A stretch of DNA of 42,561 nt from an uncultured Eudoraea sp. (GTDB lineage Bacteria; Bacteroidota; Bacteroidia; Flavobacteriales; Flavobacteriaceae): assembly GCF_947490415.1 (NCBI RefSeq), contig NZ_CANLGX010000010.1, positions 1 through 42,561 of the forward strand, in the 5' to 3' direction. Shown piece by piece: positions 943 through 18,283 of this stretch. The notes beneath the pieces were generated by a model, which did no database searches, had not been told where the DNA came from, and was given only the letters and a program-made list of their open reading frames with translations. The position numbers were made by a program, and so were the translations under genes. Within the stretch, counting starts at the first letter, position 1; each line of letters begins with the position of its first letter.

Positions 943-2388
943 GTGAGCAGGCTTTTTTCATTGGTAGCGATCTTTTTTTTAGTGTACTCGGTCGAAGGAC
1001 AAAGTATTCGAAAGAACTATACAGAAATGACCGATTCTGAAAAGACGGCCTTGGTTAATGCCTTCTATGCGTTACGCAACGGTCCGGATATTGTAAATGA
1101 TCTGGCAGTATTTCATAGGGATTTCTTCAGTTTTGGTATTTCTCCAAATAGAGATATTCACAATAACTTAATGGATGAGCCAGAAGACCAGATTTTCTTT
1201 GCTTGGCATCGGATGCAAATTTTTGAAATGGAGCAGGCCATGCAAGAGATTGATCCCAATATCAGCATTCCGTATTGGGATTCTTCGATAGATCAATCTA
1301 CTACCTCCTCTTTATGGGATCAAAATTTTATGGGTAGTTTTGACGCCAACTGGTCATTGGACAGGGTCTTGGGTAGTTCAAACTTACCCTCTCCAGCACA
1401 AGTAACTGCCTTGCAAGCTATACCTGGTTCGAACTGGCCACCACCTACATCTGGAAATATAGGTTTTTACAGCTATGCCAATAATATGGAAAGAGGCTCT
1501 GTTCATGTAGGAGCCCATGTCTGGGTAGAAGGGGCTATGCGTTCGAGAAGTTCACCCAGGGATCCGATTTTTTATCTGCACCATGGTAATGTAGACCGAC
1601 TTTGGGATGAATGGGAAAAGGCACAACTTCCTGGGCAAGGGTCGTTTCATATAACATCTACTACTATGCTTCGATATGATGGCACCTACAATTTTGATGG
1701 CGAGATACTTCCTCAGGTAGATCCTGATTTTATAGCTGATAATAAGGTTTTAGGAGTATTTTATGCTCAAAATCAATTAGCGGAACTTAGTGATTACACT
1801 ACCAGTATTTTTGGCAATGTGACAGATATAAGGCAGGCCTTTAACGAGCACACGGAAAGCTTTTATTATCAGTATCTAATACGTGTAGGAAATAATTTTA
1901 CAGTACCATCAGGTGCGAGGTGCCATATAGAATCTGTCAATGAGATAGAATTGATACCAGGTTTTGAAGCCATAGCAGGATCCTCTTTTGTGGCCGAAAT
2001 TGATCAGGGAACCATGGCTCCTTTAATTTTACTTAAAGAAGAAGAAACTGAAGATATAGTCCCCAATAAAATCCCATTTGATCTAAACGACGATGACCGA
2101 CTTGGTGTAAATGCCTATGATTTTACAGAAAGTATTGCGAATAAGGTTAAAGTAGTGGTATTTCCAAATCCATTTCTCCATAGTATCACTGTTCAGCTAG
2201 ACACACAACTAGCCAATGTTAAGGTAACTATTTTTGATGTCACAGGTAAGATTGTTTATGTAGACTATTTTGAAGATCGAGATTCAATTAGAATCCAAGA
2301 GATTCATAATTGGTCTCCGGGAATGTATATAATTGAGGTCAGTTCTAATGATCAGACTCTGCTTAGAGACAAAATTATCAGGCAGTAA
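943..2388 (+). CDS. Secreted tyrosinase-family copper oxidase with type IX sorting domain
   Basis: This is a type 3 binuclear copper protein, expected to oxidise phenols to catechols and quinones outside the cell. A GTG start gives a clean signal peptide (hydrophobic residues 4-16, cleavage near EGQ at 18-20). The CuB site is well formed: H188 and H192 (HVGAH) and the YLHHGNVDRLWDEW motif at 211-224. The CuA site has H89 in FFAWHRM, but the usual His nine residues earlier is Pro80; H58 and H73 are the candidates for the other two ligands, which would need a loop insertion. Residues of about 395-481 form a type A Por-secretion sorting domain (VVVFPNPF, FDVTGKIVY, GMYIIEV), so export by the type IX system is expected. 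The domain plan is strong; activity is less sure because of the CuA spacing. Confidence 0.88.
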   Translation: MSRLFSLVAIFFLVYSVEGQSIRKNYTEMTDSEKTALVNAFYALRNGPDIVNDLAVFHRDFFSFGISPNRDIHNNLMDEPEDQIFFAWHRMQIFEMEQAMQEIDPNISIPYWDSSIDQSTTSSLWDQNFMGSFDANWSLDRVLGSSNLPSPAQVTALQAIPGSNWPPPTSGNIGFYSYANNMERGSVHVGAHVWVEGAMRSRSSPRDPIFYLHHGNVDRLWDEWEKAQLPGQGSFHITSTTMLRYDGTYNFDGEILPQVDPDFIADNKVLGVFYAQNQLAELSDYTTSIFGNVTDIRQAFNEHTESFYYQYLIRVGNNFTVPSGARCHIESVNEIELIPGFEAIAGSSFVAEIDQGTMAPLILLKEEETEDIVPNKIPFDLNDDDRLGVNAYDFTESIANKVKVVVFPNPFLHSITVQLDTQLANVKVTIFDVTGKIVYVDYFEDRDSIRIQEIHNWSPGMYIIEVSSNDQTLLRDKIIRQ

Positions 2389-4851: not shown

Positions 4852-5913
4852 TTAGCTATCAATCCATCCCAAACCAGGACTTTCAGAAGGATAGAGTATA
4901 CCATTTTTCAGTTTGAAAATACCTTTGAACGGATCGTTTTCCATATCCAAATGCCCATCAAGATCTGCATACTGGATATTGGGGCGTGATAAAGCAAAAT
5001 GAAGGCCGGCCGATATTCCTAAACTACATTCATCTATACAACCAACCATAACTTCCAGATTGGCTGATTTTGCCACTGAATTGATATGCTTTGCCTCGGA
5101 AATACCTCCCACTTTCATCAACTTAATATTAATCATATCAATGCGCTCATTCTGAGCAAGCCGAAAAGCATCGGCCAGAGTTTTTATACTCTCATCGGCC
5201 ATTACAGGTATATGCACCTGATCTGTTACCTTACCCAATTTCTTTTCACGTTTAACTTTTGTGGGTTGTTCAAATATCTGGATCCCAATTTTTTTGGTTG
5301 CTTCCACAAAGGCAACAGATTCTGCAACATTATATCCCTGATTTCCATCAAACCGCAGTATGAGTTGGGGGTATTTTTCATGCACCCGCATCATTTTTTC
5401 AATATCTTCCTGCAAATTATGTCCTCCTTTTATTTTAAGGATGGTAAATCCCTGCTTTACAAATTCAGAGGCACGTTGGAGGGTATCCTCCAGTGGTAAT
5501 ATTCCAATTGTAATGCTGGTGGAAATGCAATTCCGATATCCCCCAAGAAATTGATACAAAGGCACTTCTGCCTTTTTTGCTATAAGGTCGTGCAGGGCAA
5601 TATCGACCATAGCCAGAGCAGATGATTTCTTCCCGAGCAATTCCTTTAGTTCTGCCAAAATCTTATTATAGGTAAATGGATTTTTACCTTTTAAATAAGG
5701 AATAATAATATCTTTTATAGCTTCTTCAACCTGCTCCGGGCCTTCCCCAGTTACAGTGAGATCGGGTGCTGAACAACCATAAGCCGTCCATTTACCTTCT
5801 GTCTCCAGCTTTAGAATAAAGTTTGTCGTTTCTTCAATGGTCTCATAAGCAATGGTATAGGGCTCCACAAGTTTTAAATGAAGTCGCTCATAAGATATCT
5901 TTGTGATTTTCAT
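4852..5913 (-). CDS. Enolase-superfamily epimerase: dipeptide epimerase / N-acetyl-D-Glu racemase (DgcA)-like
   Basis: This 353-residue protein is a complete member of the muconate-lactonizing-enzyme subgroup. The acid-base lysine pair is at K160-I-K162, Mg ligands at D189 (FDGNQGY), E215 (FEQP) and D240 (MADES), and the opposing lysine at K264 (INIKLMKVGG). A DLDG motif (D317, D319) near the C-terminus corresponds to the DxD that L-Ala-D/L-Glu epimerases use to bind the dipeptide amino group. Family enzymes epimerise the Glu of L-Ala-D-Glu from peptidoglycan, or in DgcA, N-acetyl-D-glutamate. It is last in a five-gene minus-strand operon; its ATG at 5911-5913 touches the preceding stop. The neighbouring DUF1611 gene supports a D-Glu role; the DxD supports a dipeptide. 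I keep both open. Confidence 0.85.
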   Translation of the reverse strand: MKITKISYERLHLKLVEPYTIAYETIEETTNFILKLETEGKWTAYGCSAPDLTVTGEGPEQVEEAIKDIIIPYLKGKNPFTYNKILAELKELLGKKSSALAMVDIALHDLIAKKAEVPLYQFLGGYRNCISTSITIGILPLEDTLQRASEFVKQGFTILKIKGGHNLQEDIEKMMRVHEKYPQLILRFDGNQGYNVAESVAFVEATKKIGIQIFEQPTKVKREKKLGKVTDQVHIPVMADESIKTLADAFRLAQNERIDMINIKLMKVGGISEAKHINSVAKSANLEVMVGCIDECSLGISAGLHFALSRPNIQYADLDGHLDMENDPFKGIFKLKNGILYPSESPGLGWIDS

Positions 5914-6713
5914 TAATACCGCTTTTGATATAAATCTTTTAAAGGGGCATTTTTAATAGATTCAACAAACCGAATCATATGCAGGATCATCAGTTCCCAC
6001 ATTTTTTTACCTTTTTCAGCAGTAGCCTTGGTAGCATCTCCCATAATTCCGCTTTCTGATATTTTATGGGTATGTACATACCAGTTGACACTAGATTCGC
6101 TGTCATAGTCCAGGTATTTATTGTCAAACATCATTGTCTCATTAACAGCCTTGTCCATTTGAACCAATTCCGGACGAAGTGCAAGGGTGGTACTGGTTTC
6201 AATTTCACCAGCATGAATATCATTTGGAGTATCAATTAGTTTATAAAGGAGGGCATCACTGGTCTCCCCGGTGTCTACACAAACAAAAATATTTGTATCC
6301 CTGGTGATCATCTGCGCCGCATAGCTCAGGGTAGGTGCATTATCTCCATGCCCATTGAGAATTATCAGCTTTTTTATCCCATTCTTGGCAAGGCTCATTC
6401 CCAGATCATATACAAATTTAGAAAGCGCATCATTTGTAACACTAAGCGTGCCTTTAAAATCATCGTGGTGAAATGACACCCCGAAAGGAATCGAAGGCAA
6501 CACTAATGGCTTTGGGTCTTTACAGCCTTCAGCTACCTTGTACGCAAGGTATTTGGCATCATAATAATCCACATCCACCGGCAGGTGAGGTCCATGCTGC
6601 TCTATGGCTCCGCATGGCAGAATGGCGGTATCTACCGTTTTAAGGTATGCTTCTATTTCCGGCCAGGTCATTTGCTCCCAAAGGAAACCTGTTTTTTTAG
6701 TTGTTGTTTTCAT
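5913..6713 (-). CDS. Creatininase-family amidohydrolase
   Basis: This 266-residue protein has all the family marks: GAIEQHGPHLPVDVD (E38, H40, D49), FHHDDFKGTLS around 81-91, NGHGDN at 120-125 and HAGEIETS at 167-174. These residues bind the two metal ions that activate water for cleavage of a cyclic or linear amide. Relatives include creatininase, the riboflavin-pathway formamide hydrolase ArfB and the mycofactocin peptidase MftE. The start overlaps the stop of the upstream PP-loop gene by 17 nt and its stop touches the next start, so translation is coupled. In this operon an amide or lactam hydrolysis step, such as opening a pyroglutamyl- or glutamyl-type ring, would fit, but that is inference. 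No signal peptide: cytosolic. Confidence 0.87.
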   Translation of the reverse strand: MKTTTKKTGFLWEQMTWPEIEAYLKTVDTAILPCGAIEQHGPHLPVDVDYYDAKYLAYKVAEGCKDPKPLVLPSIPFGVSFHHDDFKGTLSVTNDALSKFVYDLGMSLAKNGIKKLIILNGHGDNAPTLSYAAQMITRDTNIFVCVDTGETSDALLYKLIDTPNDIHAGEIETSTTLALRPELVQMDKAVNETMMFDNKYLDYDSESSVNWYVHTHKISESGIMGDATKATAEKGKKMWELMILHMIRFVESIKNAPLKDLYQKRY

Positions 6714-8220
6714 TTTCTTTAGTTAAAAAATAAGGAATATTAAGTTGCTCCTCATCAAATACGAAGGTATGCCATTTTCGATCTTTTAATTGTACCGCTC
6801 CCTCCGAATATTGTGCGAAAATACGGAACAGTGGTTCTCTGATGTATTTGGGTATATCGTCCAAATGACTTCGTTCCCTGTCAAAGCGAAGTTGTACAAT
6901 TTCAGGATGTTCCTTCGCCAGTTTAAGGGTATGTTCGTTCTCATCGATAAGTTTCTTATTCAGCAATATATGGAATAGTTGTGCCGCATCAGACCCAAGC
7001 TGTTTAATACTCTGTTTTGTGAGGGCATCCAGTCCTTTTTCTATTTGTTCATCTGAATAGCCACACCTTTTTGGATCCTCATCCAACGCCTTTAACATAC
7101 CTACAATTCGCCTGCATTTTTCACAATTCCCACAGGGCAGCATTCGTCCATGGTGCTCGTGTGCAGCATGACAGGACACCTGCTGTTTTTGCAGTTCAGG
7201 GTATCGTTTTACCAGCACTTTTAATATCAGGAGTTCCCCCAGGCTTCGCAAAATAGAATATTGATAAATATTCCACCCTTTTTTATGATAGTATCGGCTC
7301 AGGGCATTATCGAAATAAGCGCTCTGGTCATATAGGCCCTTATAATGTGTTATCCCGTTGTGGTTGCCTTTTAAAGTAGTATCATACTCATTCCCTATCA
7401 GAATATTTCCAATATTTCGCTTACGTGCAACAGGCAATACCCCGAAAAGAAATACAGCCACTGTCCATAATCTTATAGGATAGATGTCAGCCCTGATATT
7501 CTGAAAGTTTTCTTTAATAAAAGGCATTTGTCGCACCATCCAATTAAAGATGCGATCACTATTGCACCAGGGTTTGACCGTATTGGGTTCCGTTTTTTGA
7601 AAGTATTTAAAGGCATTGACAGCTGTAAACCAATGCCGTCCGGATTCATTGATAAAGACCGGGTGTGGTTCTCCAATTTCTTTGATTAACCCATACGTCA
7701 GCAAACTGTCTTTACCTCCGCTACTCAAAATCGCGTATTGTGATTTGTCTGTTTCCGACTTGCGCTTTTTGAGTTCCAGATGATAAAATTGCGTATTCGT
7801 GAAATTTAATTTCGCAGCCGTATAATGATCTATTTTTTCAGATGTAATTGCATCAAATGGTGGTTTTAAAAATTCATTTTTGGTCAGGAATTTGTTGACT
7901 AAAATTTCCCTGGAAGTGTTTTCCAGCATATCGAGGAGAAATCGTTTATCAGTCTGATCAAAAAGACCATCAAACTCAATGCTTTCAAAAAAAAGTCCGT
8001 AATTTAAGGCTACCTGAACCACCATCATTGAAGCAAGGTTGACATCTTCAGGATTTTTCCGGTCAAAGTAGGTGTTATCGTAGGAATAGATCAGCTCATT
8101 TTTCTCTTCACTTTCGTCATTTTTCACAATTGTATACACCGCTTTTACCCGTTTGGGCTCAACGCTTAAATTATGTACCCTGAGTAAAGGAAAAACAACA
8201 AGTGATCTAATGTCTATCAT
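6697..8220 (-). CDS. PP-loop ATP-pyrophosphatase-like protein with Cys4 site (MurL-like candidate)
   Basis: This 507-residue protein is not one I can name with certainty. A PP-loop SSGGKDS at 166-172 marks an enzyme that adenylates a substrate and releases pyrophosphate, as in QueC, asparagine synthetase and tRNA thiolases. Further on are GNEYD (277-281) and a zinc-type cluster C350, C363, C366, C369 (C-x12-C-G-N-C-E-K-C) like that of QueC. The N-terminal 150 residues and C-terminal 120 residues are extra domains. MurL, the UDP-MurNAc-L-Ala-L-Glu epimerase, has a similar size and uses ATP to give AMP, and the neighbouring epimerase makes a glutamyl substrate attractive. It overlaps both neighbours (ATGA with the DUF1611 gene), so it belongs to the operon. 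Call of fold: confident. Call of reaction: speculative. Confidence 0.7.
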   Translation of the reverse strand: MIDIRSLVVFPLLRVHNLSVEPKRVKAVYTIVKNDESEEKNELIYSYDNTYFDRKNPEDVNLASMMVVQVALNYGLFFESIEFDGLFDQTDKRFLLDMLENTSREILVNKFLTKNEFLKPPFDAITSEKIDHYTAAKLNFTNTQFYHLELKKRKSETDKSQYAILSSGGKDSLLTYGLIKEIGEPHPVFINESGRHWFTAVNAFKYFQKTEPNTVKPWCNSDRIFNWMVRQMPFIKENFQNIRADIYPIRLWTVAVFLFGVLPVARKRNIGNILIGNEYDTTLKGNHNGITHYKGLYDQSAYFDNALSRYYHKKGWNIYQYSILRSLGELLILKVLVKRYPELQKQQVSCHAAHEHHGRMLPCGNCEKCRRIVGMLKALDEDPKRCGYSDEQIEKGLDALTKQSIKQLGSDAAQLFHILLNKKLIDENEHTLKLAKEHPEIVQLRFDRERSHLDDIPKYIREPLFRIFAQYSEGAVQLKDRKWHTFVFDEEQLNIPYFLTKENENNN

Positions 8221-9290
8221 TTTATTTTTGCCTTCAATAGGCTAATAAGTTCATCTGCTCCATGGGCTAAAACATCAAAAGCAGGTAAGCCGGTTTCTTT
8301 CGTTATTGCCTCACAGGAAGGTAAAATTTCCTCTTCGGTCATCAACTCATGATTCACGGTAATAGCAATTACTTCTTTCCCCGATATTACCTCAACCGCA
8401 TTAATCTGTTCTTTTAAAGAATGAAGTTTATATCCGGGAAATCCGTCATACTCCAGTCGTTTGGGGGCGTGCTGCATAATAACATAATCTGGTCTTCCGG
8501 CCGCAAGAATTTCAAATCCTCCTGGATAGGCGGGATTCATCAGACTTCCCTGACCCTCAATGATGACCACATCAGGGTTTTCATTTTTCCATGCACTTAC
8601 TATGGCGTGTTCTATTTCACCTGAAACAAAATCGTTAATACAACTGTCCAGAATCATGCTATATTTGGCGCCTTGCATCCAGGCAGTTTGTCCCGTTCCA
8701 ATCATCTCAGCCTTAAGTCCGGCTCTCCTGAAACCATGAACAAGGATCCACGCCGTTGTTCTTTTACCCAAAGCGGAGTCTGTTCCCAAAACAGCCAATT
8801 TAAGGCAATCTACTTTTTCTATTTCACCAGTAAAAAAATGAAGTTTATCTCTTTCAGGCGTCATTCGCACATCCCTGATTTTACATCCACATTCATCAGC
8901 TAACCGTGCAATTGCTTTATCCTTAGATAAAAAATCATGCAGACCACTATCCACATTCCACCCCATTTCCAAAGCTTCTTTGACCGAAGATTTCGCCAAA
9001 GCTGTTAATCGGCCTCCATCTGGCGCGAGCCCTATAACAAAATATTTGGGCAAGTTTTTTGTTTCTGTCAGAGCTTTGGTGGCAGCAGCAACCGATCTAA
9101 ATATGGGTATTTCACAGGTCTTGCCGTCCAAAACCTCGCCTGCATCTTTCCCTGCGTATTTACTATCGATAACTCCCACAACTTCATAACGTTCTGTAAA
9201 TCGAACCAATCCATGGGCTGTTTTCCCATTAGGGGTGTTAAATGCGCCCTCACAATATACCAGGGCTTTTCCGTCTATACTTTTTTTCAT
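8217..9290 (-). CDS. DUF1611 / DgcN-like protein
   Basis: This 357-residue protein has the DUF1611 plan: an N-terminal Rossmann-like domain (VGVIDSKYAGKDAGEVLDG near 38-56, FVIGLAPDGG near 84-93) and a C-terminal P-loop-type domain with GTDSALGKRTTAW (169-181), GTGQTAWMQGAKY (198-210), VVIIEGQGSLMNPAYPGG and QHAPKRLEYDGFPGY. Proteins of this family paired with an enolase-superfamily gene have been described as DgcN, an acetyltransferase that turns D-glutamate into N-acetyl-D-glutamate before epimerisation by DgcA. Both members are present in this operon, separated by two genes. Its stop overlaps the next start by 4 nt. Whether it uses D-Glu or a related dicarboxylate cannot be read from sequence. 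Confidence 0.82.
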   Translation of the reverse strand: MKKSIDGKALVYCEGAFNTPNGKTAHGLVRFTERYEVVGVIDSKYAGKDAGEVLDGKTCEIPIFRSVAAATKALTETKNLPKYFVIGLAPDGGRLTALAKSSVKEALEMGWNVDSGLHDFLSKDKAIARLADECGCKIRDVRMTPERDKLHFFTGEIEKVDCLKLAVLGTDSALGKRTTAWILVHGFRRAGLKAEMIGTGQTAWMQGAKYSMILDSCINDFVSGEIEHAIVSAWKNENPDVVIIEGQGSLMNPAYPGGFEILAAGRPDYVIMQHAPKRLEYDGFPGYKLHSLKEQINAVEVISGKEVIAITVNHELMTEEEILPSCEAITKETGLPAFDVLAHGADELISLLKAKIK

Positions 9291-9307
9291 TTTCTAAATT
9301 TTAATAC

Positions 9308-10369
9308 TTAGTACCTGGCTGTTAAAACAGCCACAAACCGGTCGGGTTCAAAATCAAGTTTTGCATCAAGTTCCAATAATGCTATAAGGCCGGCTGTAGC
9401 TGCAGGCAGAATTCTTAGCCCCTCTTTTTTAAGCAAAAGCGAACTCATATCCTTCAACTTTTTATCGCTTATATTAAATGCGTCGCCCCCGGATTCCCTT
9501 ATGGCATACAGTGCTTCGTCTCCGTCAAAACTGTGCCAGTTAATAAGAGGTTCATTGTATTGTGTTTCCTTAATAACTTCCGGACTCAAATCTTTACAAA
9601 CATCTAAGCCTAGTTTAAATGACTGCACTATTGGATTCTTTCTGCTTGATGAAGCAGCTATCATCTTTGGAATTCTCGAGGTTTTCCCTCTTTTATACAA
9701 ACTCACAAAACCGCGGTAAATTCCGGCAAATAGCGTTCCGTTAGATACCGGAGCCGCACAATATTTAGGGGCGTCTCCAAGGTCTTCAACAATTTCGTTG
9801 GCAATTTTGGAATAGGCAGAAATTTGCAAGGGGGTGTTGGCTCCCCCGGGATTCGCATCATACCACTCGTTTTGCCTGGCCAGTTCACTACTCTTAATAA
9901 CTACTTCCTCATAGCTGGCAGGGAGCCGAATAATTTCTGCATTCAATATTTCCATTTCCTTAATGCGTTCTGTATGATATGCTTCAGGAATGAATATTTT
10001 ACACTTAATTCCGGCTAAATTGGCCGCCAGAGCCATTGCTACTCCGTAGTTGCCGCAAGTTGCAAGGGAAACTACATCGAACTCCCTGCGCAATGCATCG
10101 TAAATCTGGGCAAAAGCTATACGGTCCTTTTGGGTTCCGGTGGGATTGTCGCCTTCATATTTTGTATACAGTTGCCGAATATTAAACTCCCGTTCCAACG
10201 TCTTGGCTCTGTACAGCCCTGTATCCCCAACTTCAATATTCGTGATATCCTCATAACTTTCCAACCTGTCTATCAGAGCATTCTCCTTGTTCCGGACATA
10301 TAAACTTAAGTTACTGGTCTCCGCAGAGACTTTATTTTCAGCGGTTTTGACCCCGTCTTTCAGATCCAT
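9308..10369 (-). CDS. PLP-dependent fold-type II enzyme (threonine synthase/cysteate synthase-like)
   Basis: This 353-residue protein has the beta-family PLP fold. The Schiff-base lysine is K81 in NPTGTQKDR, the phosphate/substrate loop is ATCGNYG (103-109), and a second loop reads PVSNGTLFAG. The nearest named relatives are threonine synthase and the archaeal cysteate synthase; the TQKDR form differs from the SFKDR of true threonine synthases. Such enzymes do beta- or gamma-replacement or elimination on amino acids, so this one may make or break the amino-acid substrate of the operon. It is the first gene of the cluster: 17 nt separate its stop from the DUF1611 start. The exact reaction is not known. 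Cytosolic. Confidence 0.8.
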   Translation of the reverse strand: MDLKDGVKTAENKVSAETSNLSLYVRNKENALIDRLESYEDITNIEVGDTGLYRAKTLEREFNIRQLYTKYEGDNPTGTQKDRIAFAQIYDALRREFDVVSLATCGNYGVAMALAANLAGIKCKIFIPEAYHTERIKEMEILNAEIIRLPASYEEVVIKSSELARQNEWYDANPGGANTPLQISAYSKIANEIVEDLGDAPKYCAAPVSNGTLFAGIYRGFVSLYKRGKTSRIPKMIAASSSRKNPIVQSFKLGLDVCKDLSPEVIKETQYNEPLINWHSFDGDEALYAIRESGGDAFNISDKKLKDMSSLLLKKEGLRILPAATAGLIALLELDAKLDFEPDRFVAVLTARY

Positions 10370-10613: not shown

Positions 10614-11681
10614 ATGCAAAAAGCAACTTCATCAAGAGCAGCAAATAAAACAGGATTAGCCCCTGGTACTATCGTTTATGTTGGGAATAAAGCCAAAAAA
10701 GATTTGTTTATAGATGTCTTTGACTATAACAAGGAATATCTGGACGAAAAGCAACTCAAAAATATTGAAGAAGCCTTTACCTATGAAAATAAGGAGACCA
10801 TAACATGGATAAATGTCAACGGGCTTAATCACGTCAATGAAATTGAAAAATTGGGGAAAGATTTTGAGCTGCATCCGCTAATCTTAGAAGATATTGCCAA
10901 TACCAAGCAAAGGCCCAAACTGGAGGAGCATGAGGAATATATTTTTGTAGTGTTAAAAATGCTTTATTTTGATCAGGAACAGAATCTAAAATTTGAAAAT
11001 ATAAGTTTCATTCAGGGTTCCAATTATGTATTGTCTTTTCAGGAAGCGGATGGTGATGTTTTTGATTCGGTCAGGGAGCGATTGCGCAACAGCAAAGGCC
11101 GGGTTAGGAGCCAGAGTGCAGACTACCTGCTTTATGTACTCATGGATGCCATAGTGGATAATTATTTTAATCTCATGGAGGTGATGGGTGAAAAAATAGA
11201 AGAATTGGAGGAAAATTTATTTGAAGAAAAATCAAATAATGATCTTATTCAGGAAATCCACAACCTAAAAAGGGAAATACTAAGAATACGCCGCGCTGTT
11301 TATCCACTTAGAGAAGTGGTAAACCGCATGGATAAAGTTGAGACCTCACTGGTTTCTGAAAAAACTCAATTGTACTTAAGGGATTTGTATGATCACGTTA
11401 TTCAGGTCTCGGAAAGTATAGATATTCAGAGAGAATTGATCTGGAGTTTGATGGATATGTACATGACGACTATCAGCAACCGGATGAATGAAGTTATGAA
11501 AGTGCTTACCATTATGGCTACCATCTTTATCCCGCTTACCTTTATAGCCGGAGTCTATGGAATGAATTTCGAAAATATTCCGGAGCTTAAATTTCAATAC
11601 GGATATTTTGTGCTCTGGGGTGTAATGGTTGTGGTATTTTTAGGTATGCTCTACTACTTTAAACGTAGAGAGTGGCTTTAG
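10614..11681 (+). CDS. corA: CorA-family Mg2+/Co2+ transporter
   Basis: This 355-residue protein is a full-length CorA channel. The N-terminal cytosolic domain (about 1-280) is acidic and helical, with a long helix region (EKIEELEENLFEEKSN to ELIWSLMDMYM) that forms the gating stalk. Two transmembrane segments close the protein (about 292-315 and 325-345). The YGMNFENIPEL motif after the first carries the Gly-Met-Asn selectivity filter, and the C-terminus is basic (KRREWL) as expected on the cytosolic side. It works as a pentamer in the inner membrane for magnesium uptake. The gene is alone, with its own promoter-like boxes and a weak hairpin at its end. Confidence 0.93.
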   Translation: MQKATSSRAANKTGLAPGTIVYVGNKAKKDLFIDVFDYNKEYLDEKQLKNIEEAFTYENKETITWINVNGLNHVNEIEKLGKDFELHPLILEDIANTKQRPKLEEHEEYIFVVLKMLYFDQEQNLKFENISFIQGSNYVLSFQEADGDVFDSVRERLRNSKGRVRSQSADYLLYVLMDAIVDNYFNLMEVMGEKIEELEENLFEEKSNNDLIQEIHNLKREILRIRRAVYPLREVVNRMDKVETSLVSEKTQLYLRDLYDHVIQVSESIDIQRELIWSLMDMYMTTISNRMNEVMKVLTIMATIFIPLTFIAGVYGMNFENIPELKFQYGYFVLWGVMVVVFLGMLYYFKRREWL

Positions 11682-13475: not shown

Positions 13476-14414
13476 ATGCAAGTACAATGGAAGGGTGTTA
13501 TGCCCGCTGTAACCACCAAATTCACAGAGGCCGATACTCTGGATTTAAAGATGTTTGAGCAAAACATAAATGCTCAGGTCGAGGCGGGTGTTAGCGGAAT
13601 TATACTGGGAGGCACCCTGGGCGAAGCCAGTACACTTTCAGATGATGAAAAGAGGATTCTTATTGAGACCACTGTAGGCATCGTAGATGGGAAAATTCCT
13701 GTTATCATAAACATTGCAGAACAATCCACCAAAGGAGCTATTATGGCTGCAAATAATGCATTAAAGTATGGTGCAAGTGGACTTATGATGCTACCTCCGA
13801 TGCGCTATAAAGCAAATGATTATGAAACGGTTACCTATTTTAAGGCTATTGCCCAAAGTACAGACCTGCCAATCATGATTTACAATAATCCGGTAGATTA
13901 TGGAATTGAAGTTACGCTGGACATGTTTGAGGAAATATTACAATGCGCCAACATACAGGCGGTAAAGGAATCTACCCGTGATATTTCTAATATCACCCGA
14001 ATAAAAAACAGATTTGGAGATCGGTTAAAAGTACTTACAGGGGTAGATACCCTTGGGCTTGAAAGTATATTAATGGGGGCCGATGGCTGGGTAGCCGGCC
14101 TCGTCTGTGCCTTTCCACAGGAAACCGTTGCTATTTACGAACTGGCAAAAGCCGGCAGAACTGCCGAGGCTTTACAAATTTACCGCTGGTTTTTACCGCT
14201 ATTGGAACTGGATATAAGCCCACAACTGGTGCAGAATATTAAATTGGCTGAAGTTGCCACAGGAATAGGCTCAGAAAATGTGAGGGCACCCAGACTCGCG
14301 CTACAGGGAGACGAACGCCAAAGGGTTTTAAAAATTATAGAAGAAGGAATGAAATCCAGACCAACATTACCGGATTATAAAGATTTGAACAAAACATCTT
14401 ATCATACGGCCTAA
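13476..14414 (+). CDS. DHDPS-family lyase, probable 1-pyrroline-4-hydroxy-2-carboxylate deaminase
   Basis: This 312-residue TIM-barrel aldolase/dehydratase keeps the Schiff-base K164 (AVKESTRD) and the Y136 proton relay (MIYNNP). The substrate loop GGTLGEAST (45-53) replaces the GTTGE of true dihydrodipicolinate synthase. With an aldehyde dehydrogenase, a hydroxyproline epimerase and a FAD amine oxidoreductase directly behind it, the best fit is the step that turns 1-pyrroline-4-hydroxy-2-carboxylate into 2-oxoglutarate semialdehyde plus ammonia. The alternative, 2-keto-3-deoxy-L-arabonate dehydratase, gives the same product and cannot be excluded given the arabinosidase downstream. Only 11 nt separate it from the next gene. 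Confidence 0.85.
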   Translation: MQVQWKGVMPAVTTKFTEADTLDLKMFEQNINAQVEAGVSGIILGGTLGEASTLSDDEKRILIETTVGIVDGKIPVIINIAEQSTKGAIMAANNALKYGASGLMMLPPMRYKANDYETVTYFKAIAQSTDLPIMIYNNPVDYGIEVTLDMFEEILQCANIQAVKESTRDISNITRIKNRFGDRLKVLTGVDTLGLESILMGADGWVAGLVCAFPQETVAIYELAKAGRTAEALQIYRWFLPLLELDISPQLVQNIKLAEVATGIGSENVRAPRLALQGDERQRVLKIIEEGMKSRPTLPDYKDLNKTSYHTA

Positions 14415-14425
14415 CTAACAACACT

Positions 14426-16009
14426 ATGATCACAGGAAAAAATTATATTGGAAATAAACACTCTGCCAATGGCAGTAAGACTTATAAAACTTTTAACCCC
14501 AAATTAAATCTGGAGAACGAATGGACTTTTTATGAAGCCACAGGAGAGGAACTGAATGAAGCCGCAAAACTAGCCTCAGAAGCTTTTGAAAGTTATAGAA
14601 ACTTCACAGCAGAACGTAAGGCCGGCTTTTTAAGAGTTATTGCTGATGAAATCGAAGCCCTGGGTGATTTGCTTATCGATACCTATTGCCTGGAAAGCGG
14701 TCTCCCCGAAGGCAGGGCTAAAGGAGAACGGGGGCGCACCGTCGGTCAGTTAAGAACCTTTGCCAACACTTTGGAAGATGGTTCCTGGGTAGAGGCCAGT
14801 ATTGATACTGCGCTGCCAGACAGGACTCCTGTACCAAAACCCGATATAAGAAAGATGCTTTTCCCTATGGGGCCTGTTGCCGTATTTGGCTCCAGTAATT
14901 TTCCACTAGCCTATTCCACTGCGGGTGGGGATACTGCCAGTGCACTTGCAGCCGGTTGTCCGGTTATTGTGAAGAGTCATCCCATGCATGCCGGAACAGG
15001 GGAACTGGTAGCTTCAGCCATTCAAAAAGCAGCAAAAAAAACAGATATGCCCAATGGGGTGTTTTCCAACCTGAACAGTAGTGGCATTGAAGTGGGTCAG
15101 CAACTTGTTAAACACCCAGTGATAAAGGCAGTTGGATTTACGGGAAGTATCCGGGGTGGAACAGCCTTGCAAAAATTGGCCAATGAGCGTCCGGAACCAA
15201 TTCCTGTTTTCGCTGAAATGGGCAGTATTAATCCCGTAGTGGTATTGCCTTCTGCCCTTCGAGAAAAGGCAAGTTCTTGGGCGGAACAATACGCCGGATC
15301 TATTATGTTGGGTGCTGGGCAGTTTTGTACCAATCCCGGACTTATTTTAGGCCTGAAAAGTGAAGCCCTGGATACTTTTATCAGTTCCCTGGGGAAAGAA
15401 ATTGCGAAGCTGGAACCCAGTTGTATGTTGCATCCCAACATTTATGGCAATTACGAAAGAGGTAAGCAAACAGCTGCTGCCCAGTCCGGTACCAGCCCAA
15501 TAGCAAATTTTGGAAAAGACCCACAGCCCTATTTTGCCCAACAACTTGTGCTTACAACCGAAGGGAAAAATTTTCTGGAGAACCCCAAACTACACCAGGA
15601 AGTATTTGGCCCCTTTTCAATAGTTGTTCAATGCGAGAATATCAAGGAACTCATCAGTATCCTCAATAATTTGGAAGGACAGCTTACCGGTACCATTTTA
15701 GGAAGCGTACAGGAAGTAGGTGGACATGTAAATGTGGTGTCCGCCCTCGGAAGTCGGGTTGGCCGGATTATTTTTAACGGCGTTCCTACCGGGGTGGAAG
15801 TTTGCCCCTCTATGGTACATGGCGGACCTTTCCCTGCTTCAACAGATAGCAGGTTTACCGCAGTGGGCCCGTATGCAATAAAACGTTGGGTAAGGCCCGT
15901 GGCCTATCAAAGCTGGCCCCAGGATCTTCTCCCGGATGAGCTTAAAGATGAGAATCCGCGTCAAATTTTACGATTGGTAAATGGGGTTTATACGGATGCA
16001 GCGATTTAA
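14426..16009 (+). CDS. Aldehyde dehydrogenase, probable 2-oxoglutarate semialdehyde dehydrogenase
   Basis: This 527-residue protein has the catalytic Cys301 (GAGQFCTNPG) and general base E264 (FAEMGSINP). The cofactor region includes VFGSSNFPLAYS and the GFTGS segment near 237-241. Length and sequence style match the NADP-type 2,5-dioxovalerate (2-oxoglutarate semialdehyde) dehydrogenases that end the hydroxyproline, L-arabinose and glucarate pathways. It would yield 2-oxoglutarate for the TCA cycle. It sits between the lyase and the epimerase with gaps of 11 and 14 nt, strong support for a shared transcript. Cytosolic. Confidence 0.9.
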   Translation: MITGKNYIGNKHSANGSKTYKTFNPKLNLENEWTFYEATGEELNEAAKLASEAFESYRNFTAERKAGFLRVIADEIEALGDLLIDTYCLESGLPEGRAKGERGRTVGQLRTFANTLEDGSWVEASIDTALPDRTPVPKPDIRKMLFPMGPVAVFGSSNFPLAYSTAGGDTASALAAGCPVIVKSHPMHAGTGELVASAIQKAAKKTDMPNGVFSNLNSSGIEVGQQLVKHPVIKAVGFTGSIRGGTALQKLANERPEPIPVFAEMGSINPVVVLPSALREKASSWAEQYAGSIMLGAGQFCTNPGLILGLKSEALDTFISSLGKEIAKLEPSCMLHPNIYGNYERGKQTAAAQSGTSPIANFGKDPQPYFAQQLVLTTEGKNFLENPKLHQEVFGPFSIVVQCENIKELISILNNLEGQLTGTILGSVQEVGGHVNVVSALGSRVGRIIFNGVPTGVEVCPSMVHGGPFPASTDSRFTAVGPYAIKRWVRPVAYQSWPQDLLPDELKDENPRQILRLVNGVYTDAAI

Positions 16010-16023
16010 CAGACCATAGGCCA

Positions 16024-17031
16024 ATGGCTATAACTACCTTTAATTGTATTGATGCTCATACTTGCGGTAATCCTGTACGGGTAGTGGCAGAGGGTGGCCC
16101 CGATTTGAAGGGCCGGAACATGAGCGAAATGCGGCAACACTTTTTGGAGTCTTATGACTGGATTCGTAAAGGTCTTATGTTTGAACCTCGCGGTCATGAT
16201 ATGATGAGCGGTAGTATTTTTTACCCTCCGGCAGATCCTGTAAACGACCTGGGTATCCTATTTATTGAAACCAGCGGTTGTTTGCCTATGTGCGGACATG
16301 GCACTATTGGTTCCATAACCATTGGAATTGAAGAAGGGCTAATACACCCTAAAATTCCCGGAAAAATTCGTTTGGAGACCCCTGCAGGTTTGGTTGAAGT
16401 TGAATATCAGCAAACAGCTAAAAAAGTAGATTGGGTCAAATTCAACAATGTAAAGTCCTTTCTTGCAGCTGAGGAATTAAATATTGAAAGCGCTCATTTG
16501 GGTACTTTAGTTTTTGATGTTTCCTATGGAGGGAATTTTTACGCGATTGTAGATCCCCAGAAAAACTTCAGCGGGCTGCAGGATTACACCGCCACGGAAC
16601 TCATTCAGTTTAGTCGGGAAATACGTAAGGCTATTAACGCAAAATACCCCAATCAATTTATACATCCTGAAAATGAGACCATCAGAGATGTGAGCCACAT
16701 TCTGTGGACCGGCAGCACCATAGCGCCAAATGCCACCGCCCGGAATGCTGTTTTTTATGGGGACAATGCCATAGATCGTTCACCCTGTGGCACAGGCACC
16801 TCAGCCCGGATGGCACAATGGCATGCTAAAGGCCTCCTGAAATCAGCTGAAGATTTTATCCACGAGAGTTTTATCGGGTCTCAGTTTATAGGTCGTATTG
16901 AAGAAGTTACTACTTTAGACAATAAAACGGCCATTATCCCCAGCATTAAAGGATGGGCTAGGGTTTATGGATATAATAAAATAAACATTGATGATGATGA
17001 CCCTTTTGCACAGGGCTTTCAGGTAATTTAA
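16024..17031 (+). CDS. 4-hydroxyproline 2-epimerase (proline racemase family)
   Basis: This 335-residue protein interconverts trans-4-hydroxy-L-proline and cis-4-hydroxy-D-proline without cofactor. Both catalytic cysteines of the two-base mechanism are present: C90 in LPMCGHGTIG and C255 in SPCGTGTSAR. Having Cys at both places separates it from the trans-3-hydroxyproline dehydratases, where the first is Thr or Ser. The AHTCGNPVRVV start is typical of the hydroxyproline epimerases. One base separates its stop from the next ATG, the FAD enzyme that would oxidise its D-product, so the pair is almost certainly coupled. Confidence 0.92.
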   Translation: MAITTFNCIDAHTCGNPVRVVAEGGPDLKGRNMSEMRQHFLESYDWIRKGLMFEPRGHDMMSGSIFYPPADPVNDLGILFIETSGCLPMCGHGTIGSITIGIEEGLIHPKIPGKIRLETPAGLVEVEYQQTAKKVDWVKFNNVKSFLAAEELNIESAHLGTLVFDVSYGGNFYAIVDPQKNFSGLQDYTATELIQFSREIRKAINAKYPNQFIHPENETIRDVSHILWTGSTIAPNATARNAVFYGDNAIDRSPCGTGTSARMAQWHAKGLLKSAEDFIHESFIGSQFIGRIEEVTTLDNKTAIIPSIKGWARVYGYNKINIDDDDPFAQGFQVI

Positions 17032-17032
17032 T

Positions 17033-18283
17033 ATGAGTAAACGCATAGTTATCATTGGCGGTGGAATTGCTGGTTTGAGTTCTGCCTATTATTTATATAA
17101 GTCAGGTCACCAGGTGACCGTTATAGATAAATCAGACATAACTGCCGGGGCTTCTTTTGTGAACGCTGGTTATATTACTCCCAGCCATATCATTCCACTG
17201 GCATCTCCGGGAATGATTGTTAAGGGCATTAAATGGATGTTCAATTCGGCAAGTCCGTTTTATATGAAACCGCGGTGGGACCCGGATTTTTTTAGATGGT
17301 CCTGGTATTTTCACAAGTCTTCCACCCAAGCCAAAGTGACAAAGGCAATTCCGGTGATCAAGGATATTAATATTTTAAGTCGTGGTTTGTTTGAAGACAT
17401 CTATGCATCTGGTGATCTAGGTGAATTTCAACTGGAACGAAAAGGTCTGCTAATGCTGTACAAAACAGATAAAGCAGGTGAAGGTGAATTAGAAGTGGCA
17501 CAGAAAGCACGTTTTCTTGGACTCGAAGTAAAAGCCCTGGACCTTGAAGAATTGAAGAAACTGGAGCCTGATGTAAAATTAGATGTAAAAGGGGCCATCC
17601 ATTATGAATGTGACCGCCATACAACCCCTACTGAATTTATGCCTAAAATGGTAAAACATCTCAAGGATGCCGGGGTGAATCTAAAAACTAATGAAGAAGT
17701 ACTGGAGATTTCCACTTCAGCGGGTCTAATTACTGAAATAACAACCTCCAAAGGATCTTACAATGCCGACGAAGTAGTTTTGGCAGCCGGTTCCTGGAGT
17801 GGCAAGATATCAAAACAATTGGCTGTTAGCCTTCCCTTGCAAGCAGGGAAAGGATATTCAATTAATGTAAAAAAGCCTACCGGGATCAGCATTCCGGCCG
17901 TACTTTTGGAAGCCAAAGCTGCGGTTACCCCTATGCAAGGCTTTACACGTTTTGCCGGAACCATGGAATTCTCAGGTATTAACAATAACATAAGAAAAGA
18001 GCGGGTTGAGGCAATTGCCAAGGCGGCAAAAAGTTATTATCCGGAAATTGAAATAAGTATGGAGGACAAGGCAAATGCCAAAAGCGGGCTTCGGCCGGTA
18101 AGTCCGGACGGCCTGCCGTATATTGGCAGGAGTATAGCCTATAGCAACCTTGTTTATGCCACCGGGCACGCCATGATGGGCTGGAGTCTTGGTCCGGCCA
18201 CAGGGAAACTCGTTTCAGAAATAATTGACAATAAAAAAACAGCAATGGATATTGCGCCATTTAACCCCGACAGAAAATTTTAA
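17033..18283 (+). CDS. FAD-dependent D-amino-acid (cis-4-hydroxy-D-proline) oxidoreductase
   Basis: This 416-residue protein is of the DAO/DadA family. The FAD-binding GGGIAGLSSAYYL follows the first beta strand (RIVIIGGG), then VTVIDKSD closes the Rossmann motif. The C-terminal SGLRPVSPDGLPYIGRS and GHAMMGWSLGPATGKL are typical of D-amino-acid dehydrogenases. Set directly after the epimerase, it should oxidise cis-4-hydroxy-D-proline to 1-pyrroline-4-hydroxy-2-carboxylate, the substrate of the upstream lyase. Electrons probably go to the quinone pool. No signal peptide. With its three upstream neighbours it makes the hydroxyproline route complete. Confidence 0.9.
   Translation: MSKRIVIIGGGIAGLSSAYYLYKSGHQVTVIDKSDITAGASFVNAGYITPSHIIPLASPGMIVKGIKWMFNSASPFYMKPRWDPDFFRWSWYFHKSSTQAKVTKAIPVIKDINILSRGLFEDIYASGDLGEFQLERKGLLMLYKTDKAGEGELEVAQKARFLGLEVKALDLEELKKLEPDVKLDVKGAIHYECDRHTTPTEFMPKMVKHLKDAGVNLKTNEEVLEISTSAGLITEITTSKGSYNADEVVLAAGSWSGKISKQLAVSLPLQAGKGYSINVKKPTGISIPAVLLEAKAAVTPMQGFTRFAGTMEFSGINNNIRKERVEAIAKAAKSYYPEIEISMEDKANAKSGLRPVSPDGLPYIGRSIAYSNLVYATGHAMMGWSLGPATGKLVSEIIDNKKTAMDIAPFNPDRKF

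Follow-up and report, generated by a model that had tools for sequence, protein, structure and literature searches.

A five-gene cassette of Eudoraea with a QueC-like enzyme, conserved in about ten phyla and possibly making a small amide-linked compound

Introduction

The closest described relatives of the system analysed here, a five-gene cassette in a stretch of 42,561 nucleotides from an uncultured Eudoraea sp. (positions 1 to 42,561 of contig NZ_CANLGX010000010.1, assembly GCF_947490415.1; hereafter the window), are single enzymes and enzyme pairs. In the DgcN-DgcA pathway a DUF1611 protein stands beside an enolase-superfamily racemase, and DgcN, a family name from NCBIfam, acts on D-glutamate by acetylation. 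The dipeptide epimerases, among them the Ala-Glu epimerases, belong to the enolase superfamily and include the solved structures 3rit, 1jpm and 3jva. Creatininase-family amidohydrolases include MftE, creatininase and IolN, and the threonine synthase family considered here is PRK06381 (NF004996). The QueC family (PF06508) comprises QueC, Cap9 and QatC. According to a survey of the family, QueC uses ATP to convert a carboxylate to an amide and then to a nitrile and carries the motifs SGGxDS and C(x)8CxxCxxC, from the second of which QatC departs (PMC13329287). In Cap9 the N-terminal amine of a protein replaces ammonia as the nucleophile (PMC13279940).

Gene layout and conservation of the five-gene set

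The genome carrying the window is 3.89 Mb in size, and its host is probably a marine bacterium. Five genes of the window encode the following proteins, the first of them an enzyme dependent on pyridoxal 5'-phosphate (PLP):

9308-10369, minus strand: gene 1, PLP enzyme of fold-type II (PALP), threonine-synthase-like, 353 aa
8217-9290, minus strand: gene 2, DUF1611 protein (Rossmann-like plus P-loop), distant relative of DgcN, 357 aa
6697-8220, minus strand: gene 3, PP-loop protein, 507 aa
5913-6713, minus strand: gene 4, creatininase-family amidohydrolase, 266 aa
4852-5913, minus strand: gene 5, enolase-superfamily epimerase of the dipeptide-epimerase type, 353 aa

All five open reading frames lie on the minus strand within positions 4852-10369, with coordinates kept as first given, and are transcribed in the order PLP enzyme, DUF1611 protein, PP-loop protein, creatininase, epimerase. 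The original prediction of five co-directional and tightly packed genes holds: a 17-nt gap separates the PLP and DUF1611 genes, and the three later junctions are overlaps of 4 nt (DUF1611/PP-loop), 17 nt (PP-loop/creatininase) and 1 nt (creatininase/epimerase). Pfam assigns four of the five genes (PALP; DUF1611_N and DUF1611_C; Creatininase; MR_MLE_N and MR_MLE_C). When promoters and terminators were sought with consensus patterns, the matches did not clearly outnumber those in shuffled sequence.

A pattern-based scan of one genome per species (84,980 species) yielded 190 relatives of the PP-loop protein, from which the best 80 loci were kept. Presence of each gene was scored with phmmer at a threshold of 100 bits; of the 80 loci, 63 lie on contigs with enough room. 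The complete set occurs in 52 of these 63 loci. Order and strand are identical within 7 kb in 49 of them, and the order is kept in three further loci around an 8-kb insertion between the DUF1611 and PP-loop genes. The PP-loop and creatininase proteins are fused into one protein in 28 of the 80 loci. Five changes are enough to explain the fused state on the PP-loop tree (81 rows), whereas shuffles need 23.5 on average. Over 58 loci the pairwise distances of the five proteins show correlations of 0.64-0.85, shared descent not being corrected for. We are nearly certain that the five genes form one pathway. The original prediction had likewise taken them for a unit and had named rare co-occurrence in relatives as a sign to the contrary; the neighbourhood survey that it called for found the genes together, and in fixed order, in most loci with room.

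Across the 80 loci no gene cluster outside the five recurs in more than 11, and therefore no dedicated transporter, uptake system, regulator or peptidase belongs to the unit.

Distribution and signs of transfer

About ten phyla are represented among the 80 loci, many of which come from metagenome-assembled genomes; the groups include Bacteroidota, Ignavibacteriota, Calditrichota, KSB1, Zixiibacteriota, Latescibacterota, Aminicenantes, Acidobacteriota, Thermodesulfobacteriota, SAR324 and others. Within the phylum of the host the PP-loop protein is sporadic, with 2 carriers among 100 genomes of the family and 11 among 395 of the phylum (both counts include the genome of the window). Two Eudoraea loci encode PP-loop proteins with 95% and 87% identity to that of the window, and the host is therefore probably a Eudoraea-like member of the Flavobacteriaceae. 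On the PP-loop tree, Robiginitalea rows stand apart from the bulk of the other Flavobacteriaceae, and Bacteroidota branches include single rows from Ignavibacteriota, Desulfobacula and SAR324. These placements would fit transfer, with wrong binning possible for the metagenomic rows, and the cassette probably moves horizontally.

Sporadic occurrence and signs of transfer would also be expected if the cassette made a secreted natural product such as a metallophore or a peptide antibiotic with a non-proteinogenic amino acid supplied by the PLP enzyme. The 8-kb block inserted in the Muriicola/Eudoraea clusters, which encodes a TLC-type transporter and secreted proteins, points the same way. This block (c5-c8) consists of a secreted-looking PPDK_N (ATP-binding) protein, two beta-lactamase2 proteins and a protein resembling TLC ATP/ADP transporters with HEAT repeats. 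It was found at L026:1806-9773, L029, L030 and L035, at L015, L018 and L023, and at L076:1-7494, beside or inside the operon in Maribacter, in Muriicola/Eudoraea and in one Bacteroidales locus. It would be unusual for a periplasmic ATP-binding enzyme to stand next to an ATP-carrier-like transporter. Its position at first made the block look like a part of the pathway; we treated it as independent, because 18 of 100 family genomes contain the c8 gene and just one of the 18 also has the PP-loop gene. The apparent independence of the block, the presence of a TLC-type transporter in only 9 of the 80 loci and the lack of a widely recurring outside cluster speak against a secreted product, which we consider rather improbable.

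A three-gene form

DUF1611 proteins were surveyed in the same 395 phylum genomes as the PP-loop protein. Matches occurred in 69 genomes and reached at least 470 bits in 20. All 11 genomes with the PP-loop gene fall among these 20, and the other nine are without it. Seven of the nine were checked (all except G199 and G261), and every one carries the PLP, DUF1611 and epimerase genes together, contiguous and on the same strand in G001, G137, G125, G153 and G276 and with the PLP gene divergent in G256 and G163.

These and further observations weigh against our leading proposal, set out below, of one biosynthetic cassette of five genes. In five three-gene neighbourhoods inspected by eye (L103-L107) no creatininase or PP-loop gene adjoins, creatininase not having been searched for genome-wide. 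A form without the QueC-like and creatininase proteins means that the core chemistry must be able to do without this pair. Among the 63 loci with room, the epimerase gene is missing nearby in 10, the DUF1611 gene in 4, the creatininase gene in 3 and the PLP gene in 2. A close copy of the epimerase elsewhere in the genome was found for only one of the ten loci without it (L070, 412 bits); in seven of the other genomes the best homologue is distant (189-246 bits), and in two no homologue was found at 1e-40. The 11 incomplete loci fall into several types: L034 and L036 are without the PLP, DUF1611 and epimerase genes, L052 and L081 without DUF1611 and epimerase, L043, L047, L050 and L063 without epimerase, L067 and L070 without creatininase and epimerase, and L077 without creatininase.

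The five-gene set thus looks like a three-gene core of PLP enzyme, DUF1611 protein and epimerase with a QueC-like/creatininase add-on. Our first model, in which a substrate is protected, ligated, deprotected and epimerised with the QueC-like ligase at the centre, is weakened by the nine DUF1611 genomes without a PP-loop gene. Given the three-gene form, the longer pathway of the original prediction holds only in part.

In the Lewinella-type loci L034 (10685-11992) and L036 (12902-14299), where the PP-loop and creatininase genes occur without PLP and DUF1611 genes, an enolase-superfamily-like protein comes next, with an apparent twin-arginine translocation (Tat) signal by eye.

The DUF1611 protein and the epimerase

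The DUF1611 protein matches Pfam DUF1611_C with 214 bits and DUF1611_N with 86 bits. Its solved relatives are 2g0t, 7xrj and 2obn, and its P-loop residues are conserved among relatives. Like DgcN, it is encoded together with an enolase-superfamily enzyme. Unlike a member of that family, it reaches only 150.7 bits against the DgcN model NF041892, whose cut-off is 480, and its cassette adds PLP, QueC-like and creatininase enzymes.

The solved structures closest to the epimerase are the dipeptide epimerases 3rit, 1jpm and 3jva. Lysines K160, K162 and K264, which we take to be catalytic, residues D189, E215 and D240, presumably metal ligands, and the D317-L-D319 motif are kept in all relatives that cover them (59-62 of 63). 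The two lysines, three metal-ligand positions and DxD motif that mark dipeptide epimerases, with roles that we assume to be the same, are accordingly present. The DxD motif, which the original prediction had singled out as a feature shared with L-Ala-D/L-Glu epimerases, was indeed found in all 59 relatives covering the column (of 63). With 261.5 bits the epimerase is closer to the Ala-Glu epimerase model NF041118 than to the DgcA model NF042940 (143.2 bits), and it stays below the cut-off of both (500 and 400 bits, respectively). It differs from the described dipeptide epimerases in this low score, in its association with PLP and DUF1611 genes and in one further position. The residue aligned with R24 of 1jpm, the Ala-Glu epimerase of B. 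subtilis, where we assume that it binds Glu, is Glu in 60, Asp in 2 and Gln in 1 of the 63 relatives. This would argue weakly against Ala-Glu specificity; the argument is weak because 3rit, reportedly crystallised with a cationic dipeptide, has Arg at this position just as 1jpm does, and because the role of R24 is our assumption. In the three-gene loci L103-L107 the same position is Glu in four of the five epimerases and Gln in one.

The pair of DUF1611 protein and enolase-superfamily enzyme had led to the original proposal of D-glutamate metabolism. In its fullest form, salvage of D-glutamate or muropeptides, the DUF1611 protein would acetylate D-Glu or a murein dipeptide, the epimerase would convert it to the L form, the creatininase would deacetylate it and the remainder would feed glutamate metabolism. 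Such a role is consistent with the NCBIfam names of the DgcN/DgcA pair and its pathway (PMC10845958). Pairs without the PLP gene do occur in the phylum: among 13 of the lower-scoring DUF1611 genomes that were checked, an epimerase homologue is adjacent in 10 and the PLP enzyme was found in none at 1e-30. Position 24 in six such pairs is E in two, K in two, Q in one and R in one, and the pair of L111 sits behind a secreted beta-lactamase-like gene (by eye). For the cassette itself the evidence is against salvage. Both models are far from reached, the R24-equivalent is almost always Glu, the genome encodes MurI above its model cut-off, and a separate enolase-superfamily gene elsewhere in the genome is more DgcA-like than the cassette epimerase (220 versus 143 bits). 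On these grounds membership of the two proteins in the DgcN and DgcA families was ruled out, and the D-glutamate proposal was kept as a rival only. Salvage would also leave an ATP-consuming QueC-like enzyme and a synthase-like PLP enzyme unexplained, and we regard it as improbable.

The PP-loop protein

The PP-loop protein comprises an N-terminal domain of its own (residues ~1-155), a QueC-like domain and a C-terminal helical part. No Pfam or NCBIfam model matched it, and PF06508 was not listed at E values up to 10. The SGGxDS motif of the QueC superfamily is present as SSGGKDS in all 80 relatives without variation and as SSGGKES in one more, L012. Also invariant among the 80 are C350, C363, C366 and C369, which form the putative zinc motif C(x)12CGxCEKC, with a first spacing of 12 versus 8 in QueC; QatC, too, deviates from the QueC motif.

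An AlphaFold2 model built from 71 sequences (the window and 70 of the 80 loci) had a mean predicted local distance difference test (pLDDT) score of 92.8. When this model was compared with the PDB using Foldseek, four matches were obtained at E <= 0.001: Cap9 as the top match, 3k32 (titled 'predicted subunit of tRNA methyltransferase') and two chains of B. subtilis QueC, the latter with template modelling (TM) scores of 0.74-0.75 when normalised by target length. The family profile compared with PDB sequences gave a single marginal match, again 3k32 (E 0.07). The N-terminal domain modelled alone (57 sequences, pLDDT 95.4) had no match in the PDB at E <= 0.001.

The protein thus resembles the QueC family in its SGGKDS PP-loop, its putative C-terminal zinc motif of cysteines and its predicted fold, and differs from it in the lack of a Pfam match, the cysteine spacing, the extra N-terminal domain and the frequent fusion to creatininase. 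Carboxylate activation with formation of an amide is its probable chemistry, proposed because of the predicted QueC-like fold and the reactions of QueC and Cap9. The adenylating PP-loop enzyme of the original prediction can accordingly be described as a putative carboxylate-activating one.

With Cap9 as the top structural match, an anti-phage role comes to mind, in which the QueC-like protein would conjugate a small molecule to a partner, as in Cap9 and QatC. In a test for the anti-phage QueC-like systems (QatABCD, type IV CBASS) none of the five proteins matched any PADLOC model, neighbours not being scanned, and the partners of the PP-loop protein are small-molecule enzymes. We set this reading aside as very improbable.

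The PLP enzyme and the creatininase-family protein

The PLP enzyme matches Pfam PALP with 189 bits and NCBIfam NF004996 (PRK06381) with 400.7 bits, above the cut-off of 266, and in this it is like threonine synthase. It differs in reaching only 90 bits against TIGR00260, below the cut-off, and in its residue C105, which precedes the GN loop and is invariant among relatives, whereas the aligned 2zsj has Thr. A housekeeping role as threonine synthase was ruled out, since a canonical ThrC (289.7 bits) is encoded elsewhere in the genome. K81 is the PLP lysine by motif. C105 occupies the position that we take to be that of the catalytic serine in serine racemase, which suggests that the enzyme may be a racemase.

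The creatininase-family protein matches PF02633 with 236.8 bits (cut-off 31.3). Residues E38, H40, D49, H122 and E172, presumably metal ligands as in other members of the family, are kept among relatives wherever the column is covered. Unlike those members, the protein matched four NCBIfam models without reaching the cut-off of any, and it is often fused to the QueC-like enzyme.

Proposed pathway

Biosynthesis is the likely role of the cassette. We favour synthesis over breakdown because of the ATP-using amide-forming enzyme, the PLP enzyme and the lack of a further gene shared by more than 11 of the 80 loci, and the type of epimerase suggests that an amide-linked residue is turned to the D form. 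As to the product, our leading proposal is tentative, and we hold it with less than even confidence: the cassette would build a small amide-linked compound with a D residue, such as a dipeptide or an N-acyl amino acid in amidated form, which may serve against osmotic or ionic stress.

Beyond what was observed, namely the genes, their linkage, the fusion, the predicted QueC-like fold and the kept catalytic-type residues, we propose the following steps. The PLP enzyme would make or racemise an amino acid (step 1), and the DUF1611 enzyme would add an acyl or aminoacyl group to its nitrogen, comparable to DgcN acting on D-Glu (step 2). The lysine pair of the epimerase would then invert the alpha carbon of the amide-linked residue, while the DxD motif would hold the free N-terminal ammonium as in dipeptide epimerases (step 3). 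For steps 2 and 3, the N-acylation and subsequent racemisation of the DgcN-DgcA pathway serve as the model. In the five-gene form, the QueC-like enzyme would activate a carboxylate with ATP and couple it to an amine (step 4), and the creatininase-family enzyme, often fused to it, would cleave an amide of the same molecule, for example a protecting group (step 5).

N-acetylglutaminylglutamine amide is, as far as is known, made by enzymes that differ from those of the cassette. As small masked peptides that serve as solutes, this compound and other charge-masked peptide osmolytes provide a working analogy only; the charges of known peptide-like osmolytes are described as masked (PMC1224877), and amide formation could by analogy mask those of the product. 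Equally as a working analogy only, MurD2/MurL converts ATP to AMP and yields a peptide epimer (PMC8788868). Carried further, the proposal would have the cassette make a class of compatible solute unknown to date: a charge-masked dipeptide, resistant to peptidases through its D residue, produced independently of nonribosomal peptide synthetases by a QueC-type synthetase fused to a deprotecting amidase, and shared by transfer among about ten phyla. This extended version is an unlikely one, offered as a speculation.

Neighbouring genes and a possible link to osmotic stress

Outside the operon, one transporter gene of the window is divergent from gene 1:

10614-11681, plus strand: CorA-type transporter (Pfam CorA 264 bits)

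Three other loci likewise have CorA as a first neighbour. We compared 131 first neighbours (genes within 2.5 kb) with 113 second neighbours and with a distant control of 131 genes drawn from 299 genes located at least 4 kb away. The first neighbours contain 177 Pfam families, including six DUF2807 (all in related Flavobacteriaceae), five mechanosensitive channels (MscS), three CorA, three DUF2179, two Na+/H+ exchangers and two Usp; a Usp gene lies within 20 nt upstream in two loci. Second neighbours include two MscS, two CN-hydrolases and four proteins with sigma-70 domains. The host genomes of 50 of the 80 loci contain 367 MscS matches in 259.6 Mb, so that 0.23 MscS first neighbours would be expected where 5 of 131 were observed (Poisson 4e-6, or ~8e-4 after allowing for 177 families). 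Custom hidden Markov models place the adjacent MscS genes in L044, L063, L064, L086 and L089, on separate branches, and those of L086 and L089 abut the cassette on the same strand. Among the three-gene loci, L105 has by eye a Usp-like gene 13 nt after the epimerase gene together with a Na+/H+ antiporter and an MscS-like gene, and L107 has a convergent Na+/H+ antiporter 34 nt away (by eye). In the distant control MscS, CorA, Na+/H+ exchanger and Usp each have fewer than two members, one MscS being known (L076). The neighbours weakly suggest osmotic or ionic stress.

Several points count against this link. It was spotted by eye before counting, and MscS was chosen after looking. MscS is not significantly more frequent near than far (7 of 244 versus 1 of 131, Fisher p 0.27), channels make up only a small minority of the first neighbours, and the window itself has CorA only. 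Four CN-hydrolases and four beta-lactamase2 proteins among the 131 first neighbours would fit peptide or wall metabolism too. The commonest non-core cluster within 10 kb (11 of 80 loci, for example L028:6963-7583) resembles by eye a sigma factor of the extracytoplasmic function (ECF) type, and such neighbours may leave room for regulation.

Beta-lactamase neighbours and dipeptide-epimerase chemistry could also indicate a modification of the cell wall or of a lipid headgroup, in which the cassette would yield a building block of the envelope containing a D-amino acid. The beta-lactamase first neighbours belong to the c5-c8 module, whose c8 gene mostly occurs without the PP-loop gene, and no ligase, flippase or transpeptidase was seen by eye among the clusters common to at least three loci. 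An envelope role therefore seems quite unlikely to us.

Other neighbours were recorded alongside. A GNAT/carbon-nitrogen hydrolase fusion lies near the operon in L026, L029, L030 (13425-14955), L041 and L092 and could be a further pathway step. A DUF2179/DUF5698 membrane protein is the first or second neighbour in L082, L086 and L087. Elsewhere in the window, a tyrosinase with a type IX secretion sorting domain is encoded at 943-2388 (plus strand), and a set at 13476-18283 (plus strand) appears by eye to serve trans-4-hydroxyproline breakdown, with a DapA-like deaminase, an aldehyde dehydrogenase, a proline-racemase-family epimerase and an FAD-dependent D-amino acid dehydrogenase.

Significance

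The five-gene set was not recognised as a described system in the original prediction, and literature searches of the open-licence part of PubMed Central found no description of it; as far as these searches go, it is undescribed. The words 'creatininase' and 'epimerase' do not occur in the QueC-family survey (PMC13329287).

One gene order across about ten phyla means that the set must make or process something useful. The QueC fold is known from enzymes that form nitriles and amides and from protein conjugation in phage defence; the cassette extends it by a QueC-like family that can be fused to creatininase. The cassette also suggests that DUF1611/epimerase pairs have roles beyond D-glutamate breakdown, so that 'dgcN' genes counted broadly in marine metagenomes may have more than one function. 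Should the osmotic reading be true, the product would be a new kind of solute for marine bacteria.

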